A DNA stretch of 64,000 nt from a bacterium (lineage in GTDB: Bacteria; ARS69). Positions 2,200-59,086 of this stretch are shown here, piece by piece. The stretch covers positions 1 through 64,000 of the forward strand of contig JALGZR010000025.1 in assembly GCA_025774805.1 (NCBI GenBank). The letters are read 5' to 3'. The translations under genes were made by a program, and so were the position numbers. Position 1 is the first letter of the stretch. Each line of letters begins with the position of its first letter. The notes under the pieces were generated by a model that was not told the origin of the DNA, searched no databases, and saw nothing but the letters and a program-made list of their open reading frames with translations.

Positions 2200-5100
2200 A
2201 CCGCCCGATTCGATGGTTCGCCGGCCACCACGTCGCCGCGAACCTCCTGATGTTCCTGATCGTGGTCGGCGGATTGATGGCCACGACCACGATCAAGCGT
2301 GAGTTCTTTCCGGAGATCCGACCCGATCTGATCACCGTGACGGTGATCTATCCCGGCGCCGCGCCCGAGGAGGTCGAGACCGGGATCTGCATCAAAATCG
2401 AAGAGGAGGTGCAGTCGGTCGAGGGGGTGGATCGGATCACCTCGTCCTCGGCCGAGGGCGCGGGGGCGGTGACGATCGAGCTGCTCCGGGGCACGGACGT
2501 CTCCCGGGCTCTCGACGAGGTCAAGAATCTCGTCGACGGGGTCACCACGTTTCCCGACGAGGCGGAGGAGCCGATCGTCCAGGAGGTCGTCAACCGACGA
2601 CAGGTGATCGACGTGGTCATCGCCGGGGACGCCGACGAGCGGGCGCTCCGGTCTCTGGGCGAGCGGGTCCGCGACGACATCACCGCTCTCCCGGGAATCA
2701 CCCACGTCGATCTCGTGATCGCCCGACCCTACGAGGTCTCGATCGAGGTCTCGGAGACCGCGCTCCGGGAGTACGGGGTCACGTTCGACGAGGTCGCGAA
2801 CGCGGTCCGACGCTCCTCGCTCGACCTCCCCGGGGGCTCGGTCAAGACGCGCGGAGGGGAGATCCTTCTCCGCTCGATCGGTCAGGCCTACGACGGGGTC
2901 GACTTCGAGAGGCTCGTGCTGCGCTCCCGCCCCGACGGAACCCGCCTCGTCCTCGGGGGCGTCGCGACGGTCATCGACGGGTTCGAGGAGACGGGACAGG
3001 AGTCCTACTTCGACGCGAAGCCGGCGGTCATGGTCCAGGTCTTCCGGGTCGGAGATCAGAACGTCAACGACGTCTCCCGGAAAGTCCACGAGTACATCGA
3101 GCGCACGAACCGCGGGCTGCCCGAGGGCGTGTCGCTCACCGCCTGGAACGACGACGCCCGGATCCTGAAGAGCCGACTGAACCTCCTGGTCCGGAACGGG
3201 ACCGCCGGATTCTTCCTCGTCTTCGTGATCCTGGCGCTCTTCCTGAAGCTCCGGCTGGCGTTCTGGGTGTCGCTCGGCATCCCGATCTCCTTTCTCGGCG
3301 GAATCTGGATGATGCCGGTGCTCGGAGTCTCGGTGAACATGATCTCGCTCTTCGCGTTCATCGTGGTTCTCGGTCTCGCCGTCGACGACGCGATCGTCGT
3401 GGGAGAGAGCATCTACTGGAAAATGGAGCGCGGGAAGCGCAAGACCGAGGCGGCGGCGGAGGGAACGCTGCGGGTGCTCACTCCGGTCGTCTTCGCCGTG
3501 CTGACGACGGTCACGGCGTTCACGCCGCTCCTCTTCATTCCCGGAACCATGGGCCAGGTCTGGCGGCAGATCCCGCTCATCGTCATCCCGGTCATTCTCT
3601 TCTCCCTGATCGAGTGTCTGTTCGTTCTCCCGGCCCACATCTCCCGGATCGACCCCGGCAAGCAGGCGCGGGGTGGGGTGCGGGCGGCCTGGCAGGGGTT
3701 CCAGACGCGGTTCGACGAGGGCTTCAAGGGGTTTCTCCGCAGGGCCTACGAGCCGAGCCTCGACTTCGCGCTTCGGTGGCGCTACCTCACGATCGCAGTC
3801 GGCGTCGCGACGTTCCTGCTGACGGTGGGTCTCGTGAGAGGAGGGTGGATCAAGTTCACGTTCTTCCCCCAGGTGCAGGCCGAGAGCGTCGTCGCCGCCC
3901 TCACCATGCCCCTGGGCACGCCGCGCGAGGTGACCGCGTCGTCGGTTCTGCGAATCCAGAACGCCGCGGTCGCCCTGCGCGAGGAGGTCGAGGAGGAATA
4001 CGGCGCGGGAGCGGTCCGGCACGTCCTGACCTCGGTCGGCGAGCAGCCCTTCGGCGCCCGGCAGGCCCATGGGCCCCGGGGTCAGGGCGGCACGTTCGTC
4101 GGAGAGCACCTCGGTGAGGTGCACCTCGAGCTCGCGCGCGGCGAGGAGATCGAGATCGATGCGCGAGCCGTCGCCCGCCGCTGGCGGGAGCTCGCGGGAC
4201 CGATTCCCGACGCCGTCGAGCTCACCTACTCCTCCTCGCTCTTCCGGTCGGGGGATCCCCTGCACTTCGATCTGGCGTCGAACGATCTCGGCGCGCTCCG
4301 TTCGGCAACGGAACGTCTCAAGGCGGTGCTGGCCGACTTTCCCGGCGTCTTCGACATTCGCGACTCGTTCCGAAGCGGGAAGTCGCAGGTCGAGCTCAAG
4401 GTGAAGCCGGAGGCCGAGGCGCTCGGCATCGGGCAGATCGACCTGGCCCGGCAGGTGCGACAGGCGTTCTACGGAGAGGAGGCGCAGCGAATCCAACGGG
4501 GCCGGGACGACGTCAAGGTCATGGTCCGCTATCCGGAGGCGGAGCGCCGTTCACTCGGGAATCTGGAGGGGCTGCGAATCCGGGGTCCCGGCGGCGTGGA
4601 GGTTCCGTTCGCCACGGTGGCGTCGGTGGAGATGGGGCGCGGATTCTCGACGATCCGCCGGGTCGACCGGCAGCGCGTGATCAGCGTGACGGCCGACCTC
4701 GACACCGACGTCGCGAACGCGAACGAGATCATCGCCCAGGTCCGGGCCAACGAGCTGCCCGGGATCCTCGCCGATCACCCGGGGGTGTCCTACTCGCTCG
4801 AGGGAGAGCAGCGCCAGCAGACCGAGGCGATGTCGGCGATGCGGCGCGGATTCCTGGTGGCCCTGTTCGTCATCTTCGCCCTCCTCGCCGTCCCGCTTCG
4901 GTCCTACGCCCAGCCCCTCATCATCATGGGCTCGATCCCGCTCGGTTTCGTGGGGGCGGTCTGGGGACACATGCTCATCGGGATGGATCTCACGATGCTC
5001 TCGGCCGCGGGCTTCGTCGCGCTCTCGGGAGTCGTCGTGAACGACAGCCTCGTGATGGTCGACTTCATCAACCGGTCCCGGCGGAAGGGAATGGCGGTGC

Positions 5101-5429: not shown

Positions 5430-6035
5430 GTGCCCGTGAGAATCCGAGAACTCGCCCCGACCGCGGCCCCCGACCCGTCGAACGGCCGGATCGCGGCGAC
5501 CACGACGATCGCCGCCGCCCTCGTGGGCGTGCTGCTTCCGTTGGCATTCCCCCGAGGAGTCGGCGCCGTCGAGCCGCTCGATCTCGGCGGCTTCACGTTC
5601 GAAGTCGAGACGACCGTTCCCGGGGATCCCGTCGAGATCTTCGACGCGTTCACCGGAGACGTCTCCGGATGGTGGGATCACCACCACTCCGAGAGCCCGA
5701 AGGAGTTGAGGATCGAGGCCCGGCCCGGGGGGGGCTTCTGGGAGATCTTCGATGACGAGGGGAACGGCGCGAAGCTCGCCGACGTGATCTACTCCCATCG
5801 CGGCGAGCTGCTCATCCTGCGCGGGCCCCTCGGCCTCGTCGGAAACGCCACGGACTTCGTCTACCGACTGGCGTTCGAAGCGTCGGAGGGGGACTCCGCG
5901 CGCGTCCACCTCACCGCCCGGGCCGCCGGTCAGATCGAGGAGGGCTGGGGCCCGACCGTCGAGAGAGTCTGGAACCACTTCCTCGTCGAGCAGTTCCGGG
6001 AGTGGGTGGTCGCGGGAAAGCACCGCGAGGAGTAG
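5430..6035 (+). CDS. Exported SRPBCC/AHSA1-like domain protein
   Basis: N-terminal hydrophobic segment, then 'VETTVPGDPVEIFDAFTGDVSGWWDHHHSESPKELRIEARPGGGFWEIFDDEGNGAKLADVIYSHRGELLILRGPLG'. Confidence 0.65.
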   Translation: MPVRIRELAPTAAPDPSNGRIAATTTIAAALVGVLLPLAFPRGVGAVEPLDLGGFTFEVETTVPGDPVEIFDAFTGDVSGWWDHHHSESPKELRIEARPGGGFWEIFDDEGNGAKLADVIYSHRGELLILRGPLGLVGNATDFVYRLAFEASEGDSARVHLTARAAGQIEEGWGPTVERVWNHFLVEQFREWVVAGKHREE

Positions 6036-6075
6036 CCCGCCCATCTCACCGGCCTCTGCTGCGGCAGAGGCAGGC
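6033..6075 (+). repeat. Copy A: diverged left-end copy of the dispersed repeat
   Basis: TAGCCCGCCCATCTCACCGGCCTCTGCTGCGGCAGAGG; hairpin CCTCTGC-TGCG-GCAGAGG; TAG is the stop of the upstream SRPBCC gene. Confidence 0.6.
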
Positions 6076-13404: not shown

Positions 13405-13463
13405 CTAGCCTGCGTTTCTCACCAGGCTCGTCGCGAGGCTGCGGACAGTCGTGTCTGGCGAGG
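13405..13463 (-). repeat. Copy B: truncated end of the dispersed palindromic repeat
   Basis: CTAGCCTGCGTTTCTCACCAGGCTCGTCGCGAGGCTGCGGACAGTCGTGTCTGGCGAGG matches the reverse complement of the right arm of the full copy at 56169-56349. Confidence 0.8.
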
Positions 13464-13470
13464 GGGCCCC

Positions 13471-14634: not shown

Positions 14635-14704
14635 CTAGCCTGCATTTCTCACCAGGCTCGGCGAGCTGCTGCCGTAGCAGAGTCCGGTGATATATGCAGG
14701 CTAG
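14635..14704 (+). repeat. Copy C: 70-bp miniature palindromic copy of the dispersed repeat
   Basis: CTAGCCTGCATTTCTCACCAGGCTC ... GAGTCCGGTGATATATGCAGGCTAG with inner CTGCTGCCGTAGCAG hairpin. Confidence 0.85.
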
Positions 14705-17002: not shown

Positions 17003-17184
17003 CTAGCCTACATATCTCACCAGGCTCTGCTGCGGCAGCGGCGAAGCCGCGTCTGGCTTCGTCGTCGTGGCACTTCCGCCCTGCGACGGGGCTACGGCCC
17101 CGCCTCGGGCGAAAGCACCCCATCTCCTTGCCAGCCACGACTATCCGCAGCCTCACGACGAGCCTGGTGAGAAATGCAGGCTAG
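17003..17184 (+). repeat. Copy D: full-length (~182 bp) dispersed palindromic repeat
   Basis: CTAGCCTACATATCTCACCAGGCTC...GAGCCTGGTGAGAAATGCAGGCTAG; strongly similar throughout to 56169-56349; inner hairpins CGAAGCC-GCGTCT-GGCTTCG and CGGGGC-TACG-GCCCCG. Confidence 0.95.
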
Positions 17185-18995
17185 CGGATTCGGACGATGC
17201 GGGCCGTCGCCTTCCCGCGCCCCCCCTCCAGGCGGGCGAAGTAGAGGCCGGAGGGAACACGCCTCCCCGCATCGTCCCGGCCGTCCCAGGCGAGCTCGCC
17301 CTTGCCGTCGGCCCGGACCCGGCCCAGGTCTCGCACGAGCCGGCCGCCGACGTCGTAGATGGCAAGCCGGGCTCGCCCCTCCGCTCCCGCCGCGAGGGAG
17401 TACCGAAGGACGGCGGCTCCCGTCGAGGGGTTCGGGGAGACCCGCATCGCCGTCTCGCTCGGGGACGGCGGCCCGAAGGAGGGGGCCGTCGTCGAGTAGC
17501 CGGCGGCATCCGCGGCCCGGATCACGCCCCAGCCGTAGTCGTTGTCGGGGCTGGCGGCGTGCGTTGCCGTGCTTCGCAGTGCCTCGCGCACGTGCATCGG
17601 CGTCCACGTCGGGTGGACCTCGAGGAGAAGCGCCCCGACCCCGGCCGTGATCGGACAGGAGAACGACGTGCCGTCCGCGCGCACGTACCCATGATCGTCC
17701 CACGCGACGCCGACCAGGACGTCCTCGCCCATCGCGCAGACGTCGGGCTTGATGCGACCGTCGGCGGTGGGGCCGGGTGAGCTGAACCACGTCACGACGC
17801 CCGTCGAGTCGACCGCTCCGACGGTGATGACGCTGTCCCCGTCCGCCGGCGCGGCGATATGGCCCCATTCATTGGCCCGGTAGTTTCCCGCCGAGTTGAA
17901 CACCGCGATTCCATTCGCGACGGCAAGGTCGGCGGCAATCGTGATCGTTGCCGTGTTTCCGTCCATGTCCGCGAAGTCGTACCAATCATAGTAGGTCAGC
18001 GAGGTCGAGAAGACGTCCGCCCCGAGGCTGTCGCCCCACTCGGCCGCCGCGACCCAGTAGTCCTCTTCGACCGGGGTCTCGCTCGTGATGTCCTCCGTCT
18101 TCGCGAGAAGGTACGTCGCCCCGTAGGCCGGACCGATCAGGGTGCCGGGATCCCATCCCCCGATCGACGAGAGAACCATCGTTCCGTGATTGTGCTGATT
18201 CGGGTCGTCGCTCCCCTCGTTCGCCGTGTTTCCGTCTCCGTTGACGAAGTCCCGTTCCGCCATCACGTCGACCCCGACCAGCGCGTCGTGGGTTCGGAGG
18301 AACCCGGTGTCCATCAAGGTGACGAGCACTCCCGCCCCCGAGTAACCCTGATCGTGGAGTTGATCGACCTGGATCGGCACGATCTGGGACGCGCACTCTC
18401 CGTAGTCCAGCACGGAGCGGGCTGGGGGCGGCGACGGCCGGGGGGACGGCGTCACGGGCGCGACCTCCACCGGATCCCTCCGAGTGCGGGCCACCGGCCG
18501 CACCGCCGCGACGAACGGCAGCGCCTCGACGGCCTCCGCCCGCTCGGGAGTCGCGTCCACCGAGATCGCGTTGAGCCACCGGGATCGCGTGCGGAGCTCG
18601 ACCCCCGCGGCGAGAACCCGCGTCACGTAGGGCTCGTGGACGGGCACGTCGAGGAGATCCACGGTCGCCGTTCCCCGCGCCTTCGCCCGGCGCTCGAGAC
18701 AGCGCGGGGTGAGCGCATCGCGAGCGCGCTCGATCGCAACCCGCTCGGTCTCCCGCGAATCGAGGCCCTTGTCGACGAAGTGGATCCAGTAGGGAGCGGT
18801 GGCCTCGGCCTCCGGGTTCTCCGAGGCGGGGGCGGTCGCCGGAGCCGCGACGACGAGAACCCCGAGGAGGATCCCGAGCGCGACCCCGCCCCGGCGGGCG
18901 CGGCTCGGGAGCCGGCGGGCGCGACCGGCGGCACGACGAGGGCCCCGGAGGGGGGAGGAGGGACTCGGGGCCGGGGACGCCAGGGAGGCGGGCAT
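17181..18995 (-). CDS. Secreted subtilisin-like S8 serine peptidase with FlgD-like C-terminal domain
   Basis: 'VLVTLMDTGFLRTHDALVG', 'NQHNHGTMVLSSIGG', 'GTSFSCPITAGVGALLLEVHP'; C-term 'SPNPSTGAAVLRYSL...WDGRDDAGRRVPSGLYFARLEGG'; stop codon lies in repeat D. Confidence 0.92.
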   Translation of the reverse strand: MPASLASPAPSPSSPLRGPRRAAGRARRLPSRARRGGVALGILLGVLVVAAPATAPASENPEAEATAPYWIHFVDKGLDSRETERVAIERARDALTPRCLERRAKARGTATVDLLDVPVHEPYVTRVLAAGVELRTRSRWLNAISVDATPERAEAVEALPFVAAVRPVARTRRDPVEVAPVTPSPRPSPPPARSVLDYGECASQIVPIQVDQLHDQGYSGAGVLVTLMDTGFLRTHDALVGVDVMAERDFVNGDGNTANEGSDDPNQHNHGTMVLSSIGGWDPGTLIGPAYGATYLLAKTEDITSETPVEEDYWVAAAEWGDSLGADVFSTSLTYYDWYDFADMDGNTATITIAADLAVANGIAVFNSAGNYRANEWGHIAAPADGDSVITVGAVDSTGVVTWFSSPGPTADGRIKPDVCAMGEDVLVGVAWDDHGYVRADGTSFSCPITAGVGALLLEVHPTWTPMHVREALRSTATHAASPDNDYGWGVIRAADAAGYSTTAPSFGPPSPSETAMRVSPNPSTGAAVLRYSLAAGAEGRARLAIYDVGGRLVRDLGRVRADGKGELAWDGRDDAGRRVPSGLYFARLEGGRGKATARIVRIR

Positions 18996-19787: not shown

Positions 19788-20831
19788 ATGACCGTCACGA
19801 CATCGACACTGCTGCGACGGGGAGACCCGCTGGCCTCCTCGGAGCATCAACGCGACATCCTGGAGCGGGAGGACGGGCTGGCCCGCTTCGAGGAGAAGCT
19901 CCGCGAATCGAATCTCCATCCGATGAGCGCTACGGAGATCAAGGTGCTCCAGATCAACGTCGGTAAGCTCTGCAACCAGACGTGCCGGCACTGTCACGTC
20001 GACGCGGGTCCCGATCGGACGGAGGTCATGACTCGAAGGACGGCGGACGCGTGCCTGCGGGCCCTGGAAAGCTACTCGGTGGAGATCGTGGACATCACGG
20101 GGGGGGCCCCCGAGATCCACCCCGTGTTCCGACACCTCGTCACCGGGGCCCGAGGACTCGGCCGGCACGTGATCGACCGGTGCAATCTCACCGTGCTCAA
20201 TCTCCGGTCGCAGGAGGATCTGGTCGACTTTCTCGCGGAGCACCAAGTCGAGGTCGTCGCGAGTCTCCCGTACTACCGCGCGCGACAGACCGACGCGCAG
20301 CGGGGCAACGGCGTCTTCGACGCGTCGCTTCGAGCCCTCCGGAAGCTGAACCGGGCGGGCTACGGGAAGGGCACCGGGCGCCGGCTCTCCCTCGTCTACA
20401 ACCCCGTGGGCGCGTTTTTGCCTCCGAGCCAGGCGGCGATCCAGCGTGACTTCAAGACCGAGCTGAAGCGACGCCACGACGTCGACGTCGATTCGGTCTT
20501 CACGATCACGAACATGCCGATCAGCCGATTCCTCGAGTTTCTTCTCGCCAGCGGCAACTACGAGAGCTATCTCTGCAAGCTCATCGAGGCATACAACCCG
20601 ATGGCCGTGGAGGGGGCGATGTGCCGGTCGATGGTGTCCGTAGGATGGGACGGAACGCTGTACGACTGCGACTTCAATCAGATGCTCTCCCTTCCGGTCG
20701 AGGAGCGGGTCGGCCGGAACATCCGTGACGTGGACCTCGCCCGACACGAAGGGCGCCGCATCGTGACCGGTCGCCACTGCTTCGGCTGCGCGGCGGGAGC
20801 CGGATCGAGCTGCGGGGGCGAGACCGTTTGA
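19788..20831 (+). CDS. arsS: Arsenosugar biosynthesis radical SAM protein ArsS
   Basis: 'GKLCNQTCRHCHVDAGPDRTEVM' radical SAM Cx3Cx2C; 'VDITGGAPE'; C-term 'HCFGCAAGAGSSCGGETV'. Confidence 0.92.
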   Translation: MTVTTSTLLRRGDPLASSEHQRDILEREDGLARFEEKLRESNLHPMSATEIKVLQINVGKLCNQTCRHCHVDAGPDRTEVMTRRTADACLRALESYSVEIVDITGGAPEIHPVFRHLVTGARGLGRHVIDRCNLTVLNLRSQEDLVDFLAEHQVEVVASLPYYRARQTDAQRGNGVFDASLRALRKLNRAGYGKGTGRRLSLVYNPVGAFLPPSQAAIQRDFKTELKRRHDVDVDSVFTITNMPISRFLEFLLASGNYESYLCKLIEAYNPMAVEGAMCRSMVSVGWDGTLYDCDFNQMLSLPVEERVGRNIRDVDLARHEGRRIVTGRHCFGCAAGAGSSCGGETV

Positions 20832-21901
20832 TCCTCGTCGACGGGCACCTCGACATCGCGTTCAATGCGCTCTGCTTCGACCGCGACCCCCGGGTGTCGG
20901 CGCTCGAGACGCGCGCGCGGGAGGGGGATCGAGCGGAGGAGCCCCTGCGGGGCCGCTGCATGGTGGGGCTTCCCGAATTGCGCGGGGGACGGGTCGCCGT
21001 GGCCTTCGGGACGCTGTTTCTCGGGCCTCGCGACCGCTGGAGCGGTTCCGGAAACTCCGAGCGCGTCACGTACGCGAGCGCGGAGGAAGCGGAACGGGGC
21101 GCGCTCGCGCAGCTCGACTTCTACCGTGAGCTGACGAACGAGGAGGGAAGCGGCTTTCGTCTCGTGGAGAGCCGGTCCGACCTCGAGGCGGTACTCGAGG
21201 GCTGGGAGGACGGCGCGACGGGCGACGTCGGAATCGTGCCGCTCATGGAGGGGGCGGATCCGATCCGGGATCCCGCCGACGCTCCCGGGTGGTTCGATCG
21301 CGGGGTGCGGATCGTCGGACTTGCCTGGGGTCGGACGCGGTACGCCGGCGGCACGGGAGCCCCCGGTCCGCTGTCGGCGGGCGGTCGGAAGCTGGTGCCG
21401 GCGCTCGAGCGGGCCGGGCTGGGGCTCGACCTCTCCCACGCGAGCGAGGAATCCTTCCACGAGGCCCTCGATCTCTTCGACGGGCCGGCGATCGCCTCAC
21501 ACTCGAATCCGCGGAGAATCTGTCCCGGGGACCGCCAGATCTCCGGCGCCATGATCCGGAGGATCGCCGAGCGGGGAGGGGTCGTCGGCACCGCTCTCTG
21601 CAGCAGAATGCTCCGGAAGGGATGGCTCGAGGAGGGAAAGCCGGAAATTCCGCTGCGGCGCGTCGCGGAATCGGTCCACCACGTCGCGCAGGTGGCGGGG
21701 ACCCACCGGGCCGCCGGGGTGGGGAGCGACTTCGACGGTGGTTTCGGGGCGGAGGCGGCGCCCCGGGGACTCGACACGATCGCGGATCTCCCCCACCTGG
21801 CGGACGCGCTGAGCGATCTCGACTTCTCGGATGAGGCGATCGAGGACGTTCTCGGGAAGAACTGGCTGCGCTATCTCGAGGGACTTCTGCCCGCGGCGTA
21901 G
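20828..21901 (+). CDS. Membrane dipeptidase (M19 renal dipeptidase-like)
   Basis: 'LVDGHLDIAFNAL', 'GLGLDLSHASEESFHEALDL', 'ASHSNPRRICPGDRQIS', 'VGSDFDGGFG'; TTG start overlaps the arsS stop. Confidence 0.88.
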   Translation: MILVDGHLDIAFNALCFDRDPRVSALETRAREGDRAEEPLRGRCMVGLPELRGGRVAVAFGTLFLGPRDRWSGSGNSERVTYASAEEAERGALAQLDFYRELTNEEGSGFRLVESRSDLEAVLEGWEDGATGDVGIVPLMEGADPIRDPADAPGWFDRGVRIVGLAWGRTRYAGGTGAPGPLSAGGRKLVPALERAGLGLDLSHASEESFHEALDLFDGPAIASHSNPRRICPGDRQISGAMIRRIAERGGVVGTALCSRMLRKGWLEEGKPEIPLRRVAESVHHVAQVAGTHRAAGVGSDFDGGFGAEAAPRGLDTIADLPHLADALSDLDFSDEAIEDVLGKNWLRYLEGLLPAA

Positions 21902-21924
21902 CCCGCACGTCCCGCCAGGCCCGT
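21899..21924 (+). repeat. Copy K: possible highly diverged left-end copy of the dispersed repeat
   Basis: TAGCCCGCACGTCCCGCCAGGCCCG; TAG is the stop of the M19 dipeptidase. Confidence 0.25.
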
Positions 21925-24352: not shown

Positions 24353-24381
24353 CCCGCGACGAGCCTGGTGAGAGATGCAGG
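24353..24381 (+). repeat. Copy E: right-terminal fragment of the dispersed repeat
   Basis: CCCGCGACGAGCCTGGTGAGAGATGCAGG compared with GCCTCGCGACGAGCCTGGTGAGAAATGCAGG in the full copy at 56169-56349. Confidence 0.8.
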
Positions 24382-26711
24382 CGAAGGCCCGACTGATCGT
24401 CCTCGGAATGCACTGCGCGAGCTGTGTCCACAACGTCGAGCGGGCTCTGCGAGCCGTCGACGGCGTCACGTCGGCGAGCGTCGATCTCATGGGCGGGCGG
24501 GCGGAGGTCGAGTTCGACGACGCTCGCGGCGACGTGTCCCAACTGATCGAAGCGGTGAAGTCGGCCGGTTTCGAGGCCCGCGTGCATGAGCGCGCCGCCC
24601 CGGGCGCGGTCCCCGACGACGGGGCCGACTCCACGGCGCGACTCGGTCTCCGCTTCGCCTACTCGTTCGTCACCGCGTGGGCGGCGATGTTCCTCTCGAT
24701 GCCGCTGATGCACGCCACTCTCGGAGCCTCTCCGGCGGAGGGCGGGGCGCCGGCGTCCACCGGCCTCCCCGGCGCGTTCGGCTTCCTCACCGAGCCGATC
24801 CATCGTGGGACCGATCTGCTCTTTCCCGGACTCGCCTCCGTTCCCGCGCCGACGCTCCACTGGATCCTGTTCGCGATCACCGTCCCGATTCTCCTCTGGT
24901 CGGGGAGCCATTTCTACGTCCGCACCCTCCGGGGGATTCGACGTCGCGTCCTCGACATGGACACCCTCGTCGCCGTCGGAACGGGGACCGCCTTTCTCTG
25001 GTCCGCCGCCGTGACGATCACCCCGAGTCGGATCGCCGCCCTCGGGCTTCCGACGCACGTCTACTACGAGGCGATTCCATGGGTGATCTCACTCGTCACC
25101 CTCGGAAGACTCCTCGAGGAGCGGGCGAAACGGCGCGCGACCGAGGCCGTCCGGCGCCTGGCCGAGCGGGCGCCGCAGTCGGCCTGCGTGATCCGAAACG
25201 GCCGCGACGTGAGCGTGCGGGTCGAGAATGTGGTCGTCGGAGACGTGCTCCGGCTGCGAGCGGGGGAGCGGGTGCCGGTCGACGGAGAGGTGCTCACCGG
25301 AGACACGGCGATCGACGAATCGATGCTGACCGGAGAGTCGATGCCGGTGGAAAAGACTCTCGGTGATCGTGTTGCCGCGGGGACGGTCAACGGAACCGGG
25401 ACGATCACGTTTCGGACGACGGGCGTCGGTGAGGACACGGCGTTCGGGCGCATCCTCCGGCTGCTGGAGGACGCGATGGCCGCGAAGCCGCGCATCCAGC
25501 GCATCGCCGATCGGGTGGCCGCGGTGTTCGTTCCGACGGTGCTGGGGATCGCCCTCCTCTCGCTCCTCGCCTGGACCTTCCTCGGGCGGGGCTTCGCGTT
25601 CGGGCTCCACACCTTCGTCACGGTCCTGATCATCGCGTGTCCCTGCGCGATGGGTCTGGCGGTGCCCGCCGCGGTCGCCGTCGCCACCGGCCGGGCGGCC
25701 CGACTCGGCATCCTCATCCGCAACGGGGTCGTTCTCGAGACCGCGCACCGGGTCGATCGCGTCGTGCTCGACAAGACGGGCACGGTGACAGCGGGCATGC
25801 CGGCGGTGGAGTCCCTCGAGATCACGGCCGGGGCTCTTCCCGAGGAGGAGCTGCTACGGCTCGTCGCCTCCGTCGAGGTCGGATCGGATCATCCCCTCGC
25901 GGGAGCGATTCTCGAGTTCGCGCGCGATCGGGGAATCGAGCCGGAGGAGGCCGATCGCTCGGTGACGCGCCCGGGGCGCGGTGTCCTCGGCCGCGTGGCC
26001 GACCGGCCCGTCCACTGCGGAACCGCGATGTTCCTCGAAGAGCGGGGGATCGATCCGTCGCCTCTGGCGGAGTTCGCCTCCCGCCTCGAGGAGGACGGAG
26101 CGACGCCGGTTCTCGTCGCGGTCGACGAGCGGGCGGTCGCCGCGTTCGGCGTCCGCGATCCCGCAGTCCCCGGGGTCGAGCGCGTCCTCGCCGCGCTCCG
26201 GGATCTGGGACTGACGGTCGAGGTTCTCACCGGGGATCGGACCCGACCCGCCGCCGCGCTCGGGCGAAGGATCGGAGTCGATCGGATCGTGGCCGAGGCC
26301 CTTCCCGAAGACAAGGTCCACCACGTCGTCACGATGCGTGAAGCCGGGCACGTCGTCGCGATGGTGGGAGACGGAATCAACGACGCCCCCGCGCTCTCCG
26401 CGGCCGATCTGGGAATCGCGATGGGTGGAGGCACCGACGTCGCCCGGGAGGCGGCGGACATGATCCTCGTGGGCGGCCGACTCGAATCGCTGCCGTCCGC
26501 GATCCGCCTGTCGCGCCGCGCCATCCGGATCATTCGACAGAATCTCGCGTGGGCCTTCGGTTACAATGTGATCGGAATCCCCCTGGCGGCGGGCGTTCTC
26601 TACCCCTGGACCGGGTGGCTTCTCTCCCCGGTCTTCGCCAGCGCGGCGATGGCAATGAGCTCCGTCTCGGTCGTGACGAACTCCCTCCGGTTGAGGCGGT
26701 TCTCGGGCTAG
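24375..26711 (+). CDS. copA: Heavy-metal translocating P1B-type ATPase (Cu(+), CopA-like)
   Basis: HMA 'GMHCASCVHNVERAL', 'CPCAMGLAVPAAVAVATG', 'DKTGTVTAG', 'MVGDGINDAPALSAADLGIAMG'. Confidence 0.93.
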   Translation: MQAKARLIVLGMHCASCVHNVERALRAVDGVTSASVDLMGGRAEVEFDDARGDVSQLIEAVKSAGFEARVHERAAPGAVPDDGADSTARLGLRFAYSFVTAWAAMFLSMPLMHATLGASPAEGGAPASTGLPGAFGFLTEPIHRGTDLLFPGLASVPAPTLHWILFAITVPILLWSGSHFYVRTLRGIRRRVLDMDTLVAVGTGTAFLWSAAVTITPSRIAALGLPTHVYYEAIPWVISLVTLGRLLEERAKRRATEAVRRLAERAPQSACVIRNGRDVSVRVENVVVGDVLRLRAGERVPVDGEVLTGDTAIDESMLTGESMPVEKTLGDRVAAGTVNGTGTITFRTTGVGEDTAFGRILRLLEDAMAAKPRIQRIADRVAAVFVPTVLGIALLSLLAWTFLGRGFAFGLHTFVTVLIIACPCAMGLAVPAAVAVATGRAARLGILIRNGVVLETAHRVDRVVLDKTGTVTAGMPAVESLEITAGALPEEELLRLVASVEVGSDHPLAGAILEFARDRGIEPEEADRSVTRPGRGVLGRVADRPVHCGTAMFLEERGIDPSPLAEFASRLEEDGATPVLVAVDERAVAAFGVRDPAVPGVERVLAALRDLGLTVEVLTGDRTRPAAALGRRIGVDRIVAEALPEDKVHHVVTMREAGHVVAMVGDGINDAPALSAADLGIAMGGGTDVAREAADMILVGGRLESLPSAIRLSRRAIRIIRQNLAWAFGYNVIGIPLAAGVLYPWTGWLLSPVFASAAMAMSSVSVVTNSLRLRRFSG

Positions 26712-26752
26712 CCTGCATTCCTCACCGGCCTCTGCTGCGGCAGGAGCTCGGG
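26708..26752 (+). repeat. Copy F: left-terminal fragment of the dispersed repeat
   Basis: CTAGCCTGCATTCCTCACCGGCCTCTGCTGCGGCAGGAGCTC; its TAG is the copA stop codon. Confidence 0.8.
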
Positions 26753-26929: not shown

Positions 26930-26983
26930 CTGGCCTGCGTCTCGCGCCGGGTCCGTCGCGGACCTCTGCCGCAGGAGAGGCGG
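26930..26983 (+). repeat. Copy G: diverged left-end copy of the dispersed repeat
   Basis: CTGGCCTGCGTCTCGCGCCGGGTCCGTCGCGGACCTCTGCCGCAGGAGAGG resembles the family left end. Confidence 0.45.
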
Positions 26984-29122: not shown

Positions 29123-29308
29123 ATGTCGATGACCTCGAAGATCCTCATCGGACTGGCCGGTCTGGCGTTCCTGTTGGCGGTGTTCTCGGCCAAGTTCTGG
29201 CCGGTTCTCAACGTTCCGGCCGAAGGCTACTCGCGCGCGGCCAACAACCTGGCCCTGATTGCCATCGCACTGACCGTCTGTTCAAATCCGGGATCGAAGG
29301 GAAGCTGA
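29123..29308 (+). CDS. Small single-TM hypothetical protein, 61 aa
   Basis: SD-like GAGGAGAG upstream of ATG; 'MSMTSKILIGLAGLAFLLAVFSAKFWPVLNVPAEGYSRAANNLALIAIALTV'. Confidence 0.5.
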   Translation: MSMTSKILIGLAGLAFLLAVFSAKFWPVLNVPAEGYSRAANNLALIAIALTVCSNPGSKGS

Positions 29309-56034: not shown

Positions 56035-56168
56035 GGGCGGCGTTCATCCGGGGCCGGGAGTCGGTGGGGCGCGCCGACTCCCTCCTCGGCGCTCCCCGCG
56101 AAGTCTCCGCGACCGGGACACGCCCGCGCTCGGCCGGGGCGAGAAAGCCGGCCTCCGAGGCCACGACC

Positions 56169-56349
56169 TGACCTGCATTTCTCACCCGGCTCTGCTGCGG
56201 CAGCGGCGAAGCCGCGCCTGGCTTCGTCGTTGGGGCACTTCCGTCCTGCGACGGGGCTACGGCCCCGCCTCGGGCGAAAGCACCCCATCTCCTCGCCAGA
56301 CACGGCCATCCGCAGCCTCGCGACGAGCCTGGTGAGAAATGCAGGCTAA
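56169..56349 (+). repeat. Copy I: full-length (~181 bp) dispersed palindromic repeat
   Basis: CTGACCTGCATTTCTCACCCGGCTC...GAGCCTGGTGAGAAATGCAGGCTAA; strongly similar throughout to copy D. Confidence 0.95.
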
Positions 56350-57446
56350 CGATAGAGATTCTTGATGGCGGACCACGACGCCGAGGGGATTCTCGCCGAC
56401 GTGGAGACCGAGGTCGCGTCTCCCGTGAAGCCGGTAACGGTCAGCACGTAAAGCCGTCCACAGGGGATCCCGGTGAAGACGGAGGGCCCCACCCAGAACC
56501 AGTAGACTCCGGGAGGGAAGGTGTACGAGATCGTCGCGACGTCCGGAAAGACGCCGGCTTCGGCCGACCCCAGGACCTCCGGGGGACCCTCGCAGCCCGC
56601 GTTGGCATCCATCACGACGATCAAGACGGGGAACTGAGCCGTGCACTTGAACGTGATCGTGTTCTCTTCGACCACTTGGAGCTCGTACCAATCCGAGTCC
56701 CGGAAGCTGCTTCCCTCGAAGAGGAAGGTCCCGCTCGTGCCGCAGACGGCGAAAGAGCGGCCGTTCGCTGTTCCATGGAGGGTGCTGAACGCGGGTTGGG
56801 GATACGCCTTGCAGCCGCTGTTGAACTGGTCCTCGTACCCGTCGTAACAGTCCGGCTCCCCCTCGGCGATCGCATCCGCCGGACACTCGAGGGTTTCGAA
56901 GACAACCTCGTCGATCTGCAGGAAGAAGTCGCCGCAGAGCTCGCCGTATCCGTCGACGACGATGTAGTACGTGTTGCCGGCGATCACGGGCAGCGAGAAG
57001 ATCTCGGAGCGATAGCCGTCCGGTCCACATGCGTCGTCGTTGCAGGCGACGAGGTTCGGCCACGCGTTCTCGTAGACGTAGACCTTCGTGTCGTAGGCCG
57101 ACTCGCACAGACTGACGCCGATGTGGGAGTCGTGACCGGGCGTATACGCGTAGACGACATCCGGCGCCGTCGAGCCGTCGAAGGGACAGACTTCGTCATA
57201 GTCGTCGAGGAAACCGCACGTGGTCCCGAAGTCGGCATACGGAAGAACGGCGATGGGGAGAGCGGTGGCGATGTCCTCCCCGGCCACGACCGGCCGGGGG
57301 ACGTCCCGGCCGTGAAGTGCTGCACCGTTCGCGGGGGAGGGTCTCTCGGATTCGACAGGCCGTCGCGCGGTCAGGTCCGAAGCGGACGCTCCGGCGAGTG
57401 AGGTCAGGAGAACGGCCAGCAGTGGAGCGATGAGCGCGTTTCTCAT
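56346..57446 (-). CDS. Secreted hypothetical protein with pre-peptidase (PPC)-like domains
   Basis: ATG 57446 signal peptide 'MRNALIAPLLAVLLTSLAGASA'; 'DVVYAYTPGHDSHIGVSLCESAYDTKVYVYENAW...GNTYYIVVDGYGELCGDFFLQIDE'; stop codon lies in repeat I. Confidence 0.7.
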   Translation of the reverse strand: MRNALIAPLLAVLLTSLAGASASDLTARRPVESERPSPANGAALHGRDVPRPVVAGEDIATALPIAVLPYADFGTTCGFLDDYDEVCPFDGSTAPDVVYAYTPGHDSHIGVSLCESAYDTKVYVYENAWPNLVACNDDACGPDGYRSEIFSLPVIAGNTYYIVVDGYGELCGDFFLQIDEVVFETLECPADAIAEGEPDCYDGYEDQFNSGCKAYPQPAFSTLHGTANGRSFAVCGTSGTFLFEGSSFRDSDWYELQVVEENTITFKCTAQFPVLIVVMDANAGCEGPPEVLGSAEAGVFPDVATISYTFPPGVYWFWVGPSVFTGIPCGRLYVLTVTGFTGDATSVSTSARIPSASWSAIKNLYR

Positions 57447-57562: not shown

Positions 57563-57592
57563 GCGGCGGAGGCTCGTGAAAAACGCAGGTCA
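57563..57592 (+). repeat. Copy J: diverged right-terminal fragment of the dispersed repeat
   Basis: GCGGAGGCTCGTGAAAAACGCAGGTCA; abuts the hdrCB stop codon. Confidence 0.6.
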
Positions 57593-59086
57593 GGCCGACT
57601 TTTCGAACCGCCGCAGGCACTCCGGCTTGAAACGATGCCGCTCCAGCCCGAGCTCGTCGTAGGGAACTCCCTGGGCGAAGGCGAGGAGCTGCATGTAGTA
57701 GATCGAGGGGATGTGGAAGTCCTCCTCGAACCGCTGCGCGATCTTCATCTGCCCGTGATCGAACTGGCCGAAGCAGGTGGGGCAGATGAGGCAGAGAAGC
57801 TCGGCGTCCTCCTCCCGGACGGAGGTGAGCAGGTCGCGCATCATGTTCGCAGGGAGGTCCTCTTCCTGGCAGGCCTTTCCGCAGCAGAGGTGCCAGTTGT
57901 GATGGCGCACGGGCTCGGCGCCGAGGGCACCGACGAGGTCCTCCATCATTCTCGGGTCGTTGGGATCGTCGACGCGCATCACCGCGCTCGGCTTGAGAAG
58001 ATGGCAGCCGTAGTGGATGGCGATCTGGAGACCCTCCAGAGGGCGCACCACCGAATCCCGAATCCGTCCGATTCCGATGCAGTCGCGGAGAACCGTGGCC
58101 ACGTGGCGAACCCGGGTGGTCCCGTGGTACCGGCGTCCGATGCGGCGAAGCCGCCGGTCCACCTTCTCCAGGAGCTCGGAGTCATGCAGCAGGTGCCAGG
58201 CCTCGGAAAGGGTCGCGGTGCAACCCGAGCAGTTCGTTACGACGTCGAGCCCCAGCTCCTCGGCGAGTGAGAGGTTGCGGGCCGCCACGGTCAGCCAGCT
58301 CAGCTTGTCCTTCGACTTGAAGTAGATCGGATCGGGGCAGCACGAGGCCCCCTCCATGTCCACGAGCTTCACGCCGAGGGTCTCGAGGGTGCGGCGGATC
58401 GCCTTCTCCATCGCGGGATAGCGCGCCGGAATCAGGCAGCCGGGGAAGAATGCGAAGCGGTCGGTTCTCGTCACCGGGTGCGGAGAGATCTCCTTCTCCA
58501 CCACCGGGTCCGGCCCGTCCTCCGGCGGCTCCTCCAGGAGCGTACGGATCTCGTCGACCGGGACGGCCGGCATCGGGGAGAGCCCGAACTTCTCGCGCTG
58601 CCGGTCGACCGCGGTGGAGGCCGGCACCGTCCGGCCCGTGGTCTCGAAGGTCTTGATGACCCGCTCCACCCCGGCGGAGATCAACCCCCGATCGGCCAGC
58701 ATGTTCTTGAGGGAGAGGATCACCTCGACCGGTTTGACTTCCTGCGGACAGCGCTCGTGGCAGTTGTAGCAGTTCGTGCAGAGCCAGAGGACGGACTCCT
58801 CGCCCAAGAGCTCCGGCTCCAGCCCGTACAGGACCTGCAACATGATCTCGCGCGGGTTGAACTTGTCGCTGTAAATGGCCGCGGGGCAATCGCCGACGCA
58901 GGCGCCGCACTGGTAGCAGAAGTTGGCGAGGTTTCCCTCCACCTTCTTCGCCAGCTCCCGCCGGAACTCGAAGTCGACGTGGACGACATCGCCCTCGGGT
59001 CTCGCCCCGTCCTCCGACTTCGGCGTGTCCTCGGTCTTCGGTGCGGGCTCGGGTTTCGATGCGGGCTCAGGCTTCGGTGCGGGCAT
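57590..59086 (-). CDS. HdrC-HdrB fusion (heterodisulfide reductase-like Fe-S protein with CCG domains)
   Basis: 'NFCYQCGACVGDCPAAIYSDKFNPREIMLQVLYGLEPELLGEESVLWLCTNCYNCHERCPQEV'; 'FFPGCLIPARYPAMEKAIRRTLETLGVKLVDMEGASCCPDP'; 'HYGCHLLKP', 'HLCCGKACQ'. Confidence 0.9.
   Translation of the reverse strand: MPAPKPEPASKPEPAPKTEDTPKSEDGARPEGDVVHVDFEFRRELAKKVEGNLANFCYQCGACVGDCPAAIYSDKFNPREIMLQVLYGLEPELLGEESVLWLCTNCYNCHERCPQEVKPVEVILSLKNMLADRGLISAGVERVIKTFETTGRTVPASTAVDRQREKFGLSPMPAVPVDEIRTLLEEPPEDGPDPVVEKEISPHPVTRTDRFAFFPGCLIPARYPAMEKAIRRTLETLGVKLVDMEGASCCPDPIYFKSKDKLSWLTVAARNLSLAEELGLDVVTNCSGCTATLSEAWHLLHDSELLEKVDRRLRRIGRRYHGTTRVRHVATVLRDCIGIGRIRDSVVRPLEGLQIAIHYGCHLLKPSAVMRVDDPNDPRMMEDLVGALGAEPVRHHNWHLCCGKACQEEDLPANMMRDLLTSVREEDAELLCLICPTCFGQFDHGQMKIAQRFEEDFHIPSIYYMQLLAFAQGVPYDELGLERHRFKPECLRRFEKSA

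Follow-up and report, generated by a model that had tools for sequence, protein, structure and literature searches.

The window analysed here (64,000 nucleotides, one contig of a 5.1-Mb draft bacterial genome) carries at positions 17003-17184 of the plus strand a 182-bp palindromic element, further copies of which lie scattered along the same DNA. What kind of element is this, and what could have dispersed it? The original prediction had proposed a non-autonomous mobile or structured-RNA element without a transposase gene, in about 10 full or partial copies in the 64 kb. We find that the element indeed encodes no protein and that the repeat family is real, and that across the genome it is far larger than the window suggests.

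Extent and anatomy of the repeat family

Counting copies genome-wide, a check proposed at the outset, gave 510 matches to the end motif GCCTGCATNTCTCACC in the whole 5.1-Mb draft genome when up to two mismatches were allowed, against 5 for the reversed motif used as a control. Extraction and annotation of 1.64 Mb of this genome yielded 265 ends (5 for the control), which resolve into 184 elements: 37 full copies of about 180 bp, 44 miniatures of 41-108 bp that retain two ends and have lost most of the interior, and 103 single ends. Extrapolating from this sample, we infer some 570 elements per genome. With the 182-bp copy as BLAST query and 40 of 334 candidates scored, there are at least 40 matches of 88-100% identity that cover 174-182 bp on the query strand. 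Among 36 full copies the mean pairwise identity is 89% and the mean identity to the consensus 93%, with 97.8% for the best pair; the sample holds no identical copies, and the expansion of this family, termed family A, lies in the past. Family A is short (within the 30-300 bp of a miniature inverted-repeat element, or MITE), multicopy and devoid of coding capacity, and its terminal inverted repeats match those of autonomous insertion sequences (ISs), as described below. Thus, we conclude that the copies are a non-autonomous transposon (MITE) family.

The consensus reads CTAG, CC[T/C]GCATNTCTCACC, an interior of about 140 bp, GGTGAGANATGC[A/G]GG and again CTAG. The copy at 17003-17184, identified by sequence, BLAST and fold, has all of these parts: a left CTAG (17003-17006), which is a putative target-site duplicate by comparison with the ISs of the same ends; a left 15-bp terminal inverted repeat, CCTACATATCTCACC (plus strand, 17007-17021), recognised by comparison with IS1380 ends; a conserved structured core (plus strand, 17028-17161), scoring 144.7 bits with covariance model R1; a right terminal repeat found by motif search, CCTGCATTTCTCACC on the minus strand (17166-17180); and a right CTAG (17181-17184), of which the CTA at 17181-17183 is the TAG stop of a minus-strand gene at 17181-18995. 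The second full-length copy (56168-56349, plus strand) is present as predicted; the description of the two as near-identical was slightly generous, BLAST giving 93% identity. It is flanked by CTGA on the left and CTAA on the right, and its right end forms the TAG stop of the minus-strand gene 56346-57446.

The remaining copies in the window are shorter. Motif search recovers the predicted 70-bp miniature on the minus strand at 14635-14704, with both ends kept and most of the core deleted, and motif matches identify a truncated copy consisting of one end and part of the core (13405-13465, minus strand) and a single end that still has the core box CGACGAGCCTGG beside it (24353-24385, minus strand). 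Three further single ends on the plus strand each supply the TAG stop of a plus-strand gene: 6032-6056 (gene 5430-6035), 26708-26732 (gene 24375-26711) and the diverged end at 21898-21922 (gene 20828-21901). All five of these end fragments (those predicted at 6033, 13405, 24353, 26708 and 21899) fit the motif with at most 3 mismatches. The others fared less well: those predicted at 57563 (here 57570-57593, minus strand) and 26930 (26930-26955, plus strand) are diverged and need 5 mismatches, and that at 29306 shows a partial motif, so that each of these three is doubtful taken alone.

Over the first 0.76 Mb, 35 of the 40 ends of full copies have C before TAG, and of 34 two-ended copies 13 have CTAG at each side, most of the remainder being 1-2 changes off. 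Position 3 and the central N of the ends differ between copies, as would be expected of old ones. In some places (L003, L004 and L006) elements lie back to back with one common CTAG, an arrangement that is expected if the CTAG at an element's end is itself a target.

Base pairing of the two terminal repeats closes off nested helices, capped by CGGGGC(TACG)GCCCCG; both this apical hairpin and the CGAAGCC..GGCTTCG helix had been predicted and are borne out. The element folds far better than shuffled sequences (z of -8.5 as RNA and -7.7 as DNA). The apical hairpin region is duplicated internally in two full copies, one of family A (L082:13009-13168, 206 bp) and one of a second family, B, described below (L186:1560-1805, 246 bp, containing a run of N). 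Strict and permissive Rfam searches with the element matched no family, and plasmid and phage sequences searched by blastn with the 182-bp element gave no match.

Terminal repeats and the search for a mobiliser

The terminus CTAG|CC[T/C]GCATNTCTCACC agrees at 18 of 19 positions with the ends CTAG|CCCGCATTTCTCACA of intact IS1380-family ISs from Pseudomonas, Stutzerimonas and Bradyrhizobium. A first 33-nt end query against plasmids had returned chance E. coli matches only. A plasmid search with two end variants then found the exact 18-nt CTAGCCCGCATTTCTCAC in four records, namely P. putida pKF715A, Stutzerimonas zhaodongensis and two Bradyrhizobium, while a fifth, Rhizobium T1473, was retrieved using the end from a phage contig as query. 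All five are IS1380: the P. putida, Stutzerimonas and Bradyrhizobium CB82 records carry annotated transposases (WP_034018616.1 in the first two), and tblastn reveals interrupted IS1380 genes in Bradyrhizobium 62B and the Rhizobium. The encoded proteins are PF13701 transposases, and the transposase of IS1380A of Acetobacter is 55% identical to the WP_034018616.1/CB82 type. It is important to note that the short end match taken by itself has a BLAST E value of about 5, that is, no significance. It carries weight because every match falls on an IS terminus that is paired with a second one: in all four complete ISs the other end, for which we had not selected, lies inverted some 1.64 kb away with the same repeat and CTAG.

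For two of these ISs we joined the flanks by a single CTAG and matched the result to related plasmids. Both proved to have an empty site, in S. stutzeri pZDHY95 at 94% identity and in B. guangxiense p53363 at 96%, and in each case a single CTAG takes the place of the two that flank the IS. We therefore conclude that these ISs duplicate the 4-bp CTAG. By the family rule of ISfinder, IS1380 ends start with CC(t/c)G and the duplication is of 4-5 bp. The CC[T/C]G ends of family A agree with this rule, as does the 4-bp CTAG duplication of the ISs that share them. Extended by analogy, the same duplication would apply to the family A element itself.

From these results we put at about 0.87 the probability that family A is a MITE mobilised in trans by a transposase of the IS1380 family, with insertion at CTAG and a 4-bp duplication. 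Such an enzyme would recognise the 15-bp terminal inverted repeat CC[T/C]GCATNTCTCACC, and miniatures and single ends would be internal deletions and decayed remnants. The prediction of a non-autonomous mobile element is thereby supported and its type named. Its ends, together with the CTAG target of the ISs related to it, mark the MITE family as a new one of a known kind, IS1380, with a putative mobiliser.

The original prediction had also proposed a TA-targeting transposase. No IS630-type transposase gene (PF13358) was found in the host genome; the TA lies within CTAG, to which the target is refined by the duplication seen in the two empty sites. A reading of the family as an IS630/Tc1-mariner-type MITE, with TA within CTAG as target, a 2-bp duplication and ends that start with GCC, would draw on the preference of IS630 for TA in CTAG (Tenzen and Ohtsubo 1991, as reported where PMC2170065 cites it) and on the single copy in genome G004, TTA|GCC...GGC|TAA, whose TTAG..CTAA fits duplication of TA equally well. 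However, the PF13358 gene that G004 does have is not bounded by such ends, and the ISs with exactly these ends encode IS1380 transposases, which makes this alternative very unlikely.

If an IS1380-family transposase moved family A, where is it now? The proposed search for a transposase with the same terminal inverted repeats revealed none that is cognate in the host draft genome. The one IS1380 trace, on contig C17, is a distant remnant, a 131-aa fragment of 26% identity with no such ends nearby, and was rejected. No IS4/IS5-type DDE_Tnp_1 candidate was found in the host genome either. An autonomous copy was also sought, in the form of two ends 0.3-3.5 kb from each other, and the pairs detected appeared to belong to separate elements. 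Nor did we find an IS with exactly ...CTCACC ends together with a transposase. A cognate transposase in the same genome is usual for a MITE and is not required. There are two possible explanations for its absence: the enzyme that would have moved family A has since been lost, or it lies in sequence missing from the fragmented assembly, as a draft assembly may miss multicopy ISs.

The CTAG-bounded end also occurs outside ISs, at three flanks of a palindromic element, unlike family A, in two soil phage contigs (L127 and L128). These contigs start or finish in a long inverted repeat with a CTAGCCCGCATTTCTCACC terminus (L127:1-124, L128:1-124 and 4670-4768), which in one case continues in frame into the terminase gene. 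Most of the other places in viral contigs that match the 16-nt motif resemble unrelated coding DNA and were set aside.

CTAG sites and stop codons

In the 1.64-Mb sample, with genes called by a purpose-written hexamer-based finder rather than taken from a published annotation, 75 of the 184 elements (41%) coincide exactly with the stop codon of the adjacent gene. Genes that abut an element end have a TAG stop in 78 of 82 cases, whereas among other genes the count is 312 of 1185. Very few CTAGs are present in this genome, with 267 occurrences outside elements in the 1.64 Mb, and 86 of the 198 non-coding sites (43%) are at stop codons, compared with 13% for TA dinucleotide sites. That 41% of the copies stand at stop codons thus follows from 43% of non-coding CTAGs being stop codons, and the CTAG target is the simplest explanation of this placement. 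Only 8 of the 184 elements lie inside genes, whereas 26% of unoccupied CTAGs are coding, a scarcity consistent with purging. We considered whether insertion at gene ends merely creates stops, and rejected this, since read-through in the other two frames would then be expected about twice as often, which is not what is seen.

CTAG is depleted in coding DNA and about two-fifths of the non-coding CTAGs are TAG stops, so that under the IS1380 mechanism many copies would land exactly on a stop codon; if CTAG is duplicated here as it is in the related ISs, the stop would be restored after insertion and the gene left intact. A rare 4-bp target would in this way make stop codons safe landing sites at which the gene pays nothing. 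With 184 elements and 198 remaining non-coding CTAGs in the sample, the family seems to have occupied about half of its safe targets.

Palindromic, extragenic repeats that are frequent at stop codons also recall REP/BIME-type repeats moved by RAYT, a Y1 tyrosine transposase; the termini of GTAG REPs often provide TAG stops (PMC3733652). We find this origin for family A hardly credible, as the host genome has no Y1 transposase (0 candidates for PF01797), CTAG stands on both sides in place of a one-sided GTAG or CGTC tag, and the ends match those of the DDE-type IS1380.

The structured core and its likeness to known systems

A covariance model was built for the ~134-nt core. Applied to the host and to relatives, as the original prediction had advised, it recovered the core in a second host family and in a sister genus, with weak matches in other phyla. 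The second family, B, has ends CTAG|CCCGGACTATTCATGAA, a length of 184 bp, core boxes in common with family A and about 14 elements in the 1.64-Mb sample (for example L145:17524-17707, L085:13906-14089 and L167:10832-11015, all outside the window). Two other families in the host, C (CTAG|CCTCGATCCGTCAGAA) and D (CTAG|CCTTGATCTTCCGGAA), are CTAG-bounded palindromes of 195-200 bp with different self-complementary arms (L094:4458-4652, L149:3210-3404, L181:14266-14465 and L191:6437), and share an interior that differs from the A/B core.

In the sister genus, G001, the core is present in five clear copies and a sixth, weak one. The four that are fully readable (L061, L063, L064 and L065) have copy-specific, self-complementary arms of 21-25 nt directly after a TAG stop, and these arms do not recur elsewhere in G001. 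Ordinary terminator hairpins are rejected as an account of the arms, such a hairpin being found at the stop of only 1 of 313 G001 genes. When A, B and G001 copies are aligned, 19 of 36 predicted pairs show double-sided changes that keep the pairing. Weaker matches to the core occur in an Anaerolineae contig (E 1.6e-7 in a 78-kb search) and as repeats, multicopy there, in the Deltaproteobacteria MAG VGRX01 (E 0.002), whose copies end CCGGACCACCA..TGGTGGTCCGG; the loci in these two sources are L114:201-324, L111:6994-7113 and L122:5241-5357. Two viral contigs carry a palindromic repeat, TGCGTTGC..GTACGCCTC..GCCTTGC (L199:7517-7590 and L200:10533-10606), which is possibly of the core's broad class.

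Conservation of this kind raises the alternative that selection maintains the element chiefly as a functional structure of RNA or DNA, such as a 3'-end hairpin, a terminator or a protein-binding cruciform, and that its mobility is secondary. The interior boxes conserved over two families and two genera, the covarying stems, the fold and the G001 arms directly after stops all speak for it. However, CTAG targeting alone accounts for the placement at stops, many copies lie in tandem or divergent gaps, the core is lost from many copies and Rfam holds no match, and we consider a primarily structural role unlikely.

The occurrence of the core in family B, in G001 and, weakly, in other phyla implies that it is older and wider than the family A ends. 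We entertain, as a tentative and somewhat doubtful proposal, that the ~134-nt core is a conserved module that outlives its ends, present in A and B, within the G001 arms and, as weaker matches, in Chloroflexi and Deltaproteobacteria. Selection on structure could have kept it, as could template-switch repair of the hairpin arms. If the proposal is true, MITE lineages retain a functional structured core and swap terminal repeats to follow different transposases, and the core might serve, for example, as a hairpin for transposition, in protection of 3' gene ends or in host tolerance. A common core with exchanged ends would then offer a testable case of terminal-repeat switching in bacterial MITEs.

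For the IS1380 mechanism itself, what matters is that a large gene-less repeat population is tied, through its ends and its target, to a specific type of transposase. A full-text search of the open literature, outside which many journals lie, found no paper describing MITEs of IS1380. The closest relatives of family A are the WP_034018616.1 and Bradyrhizobium CB82-type IS1380 elements, with which it shares a CTAG on both sides, duplicated in the ISs, and a terminal repeat compatible with their CCCGCATTTCTCACA at 14 of 15 positions; these ISs, however, are autonomous, about 1.66 kb long and encode PF13701, whereas the element here is 182 bp, non-coding and has no interior sequence in common with them. 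The ends of family B similarly resemble those of ISPa33 and ISMaq4 (IS1380), CCCGGATTTCTCATGA beside TAG or CTAG, again autonomous elements where family B is gene-less. MITEPsy1 of Pseudomonas syringae is likewise small and without genes and duplicates CTAG or YTAA, but differs in its ends, its length of 100 bp and its few copies, and was assigned tentatively to the IS5 family (PMC3189936). GTAG- and CGTC-tagged REP/BIME repeats likewise form hundreds of extragenic palindromes, some giving TAG stops, but are mobilised by RAYT, which is absent from the host genome here, and carry their tag on one side (PMC3733652).
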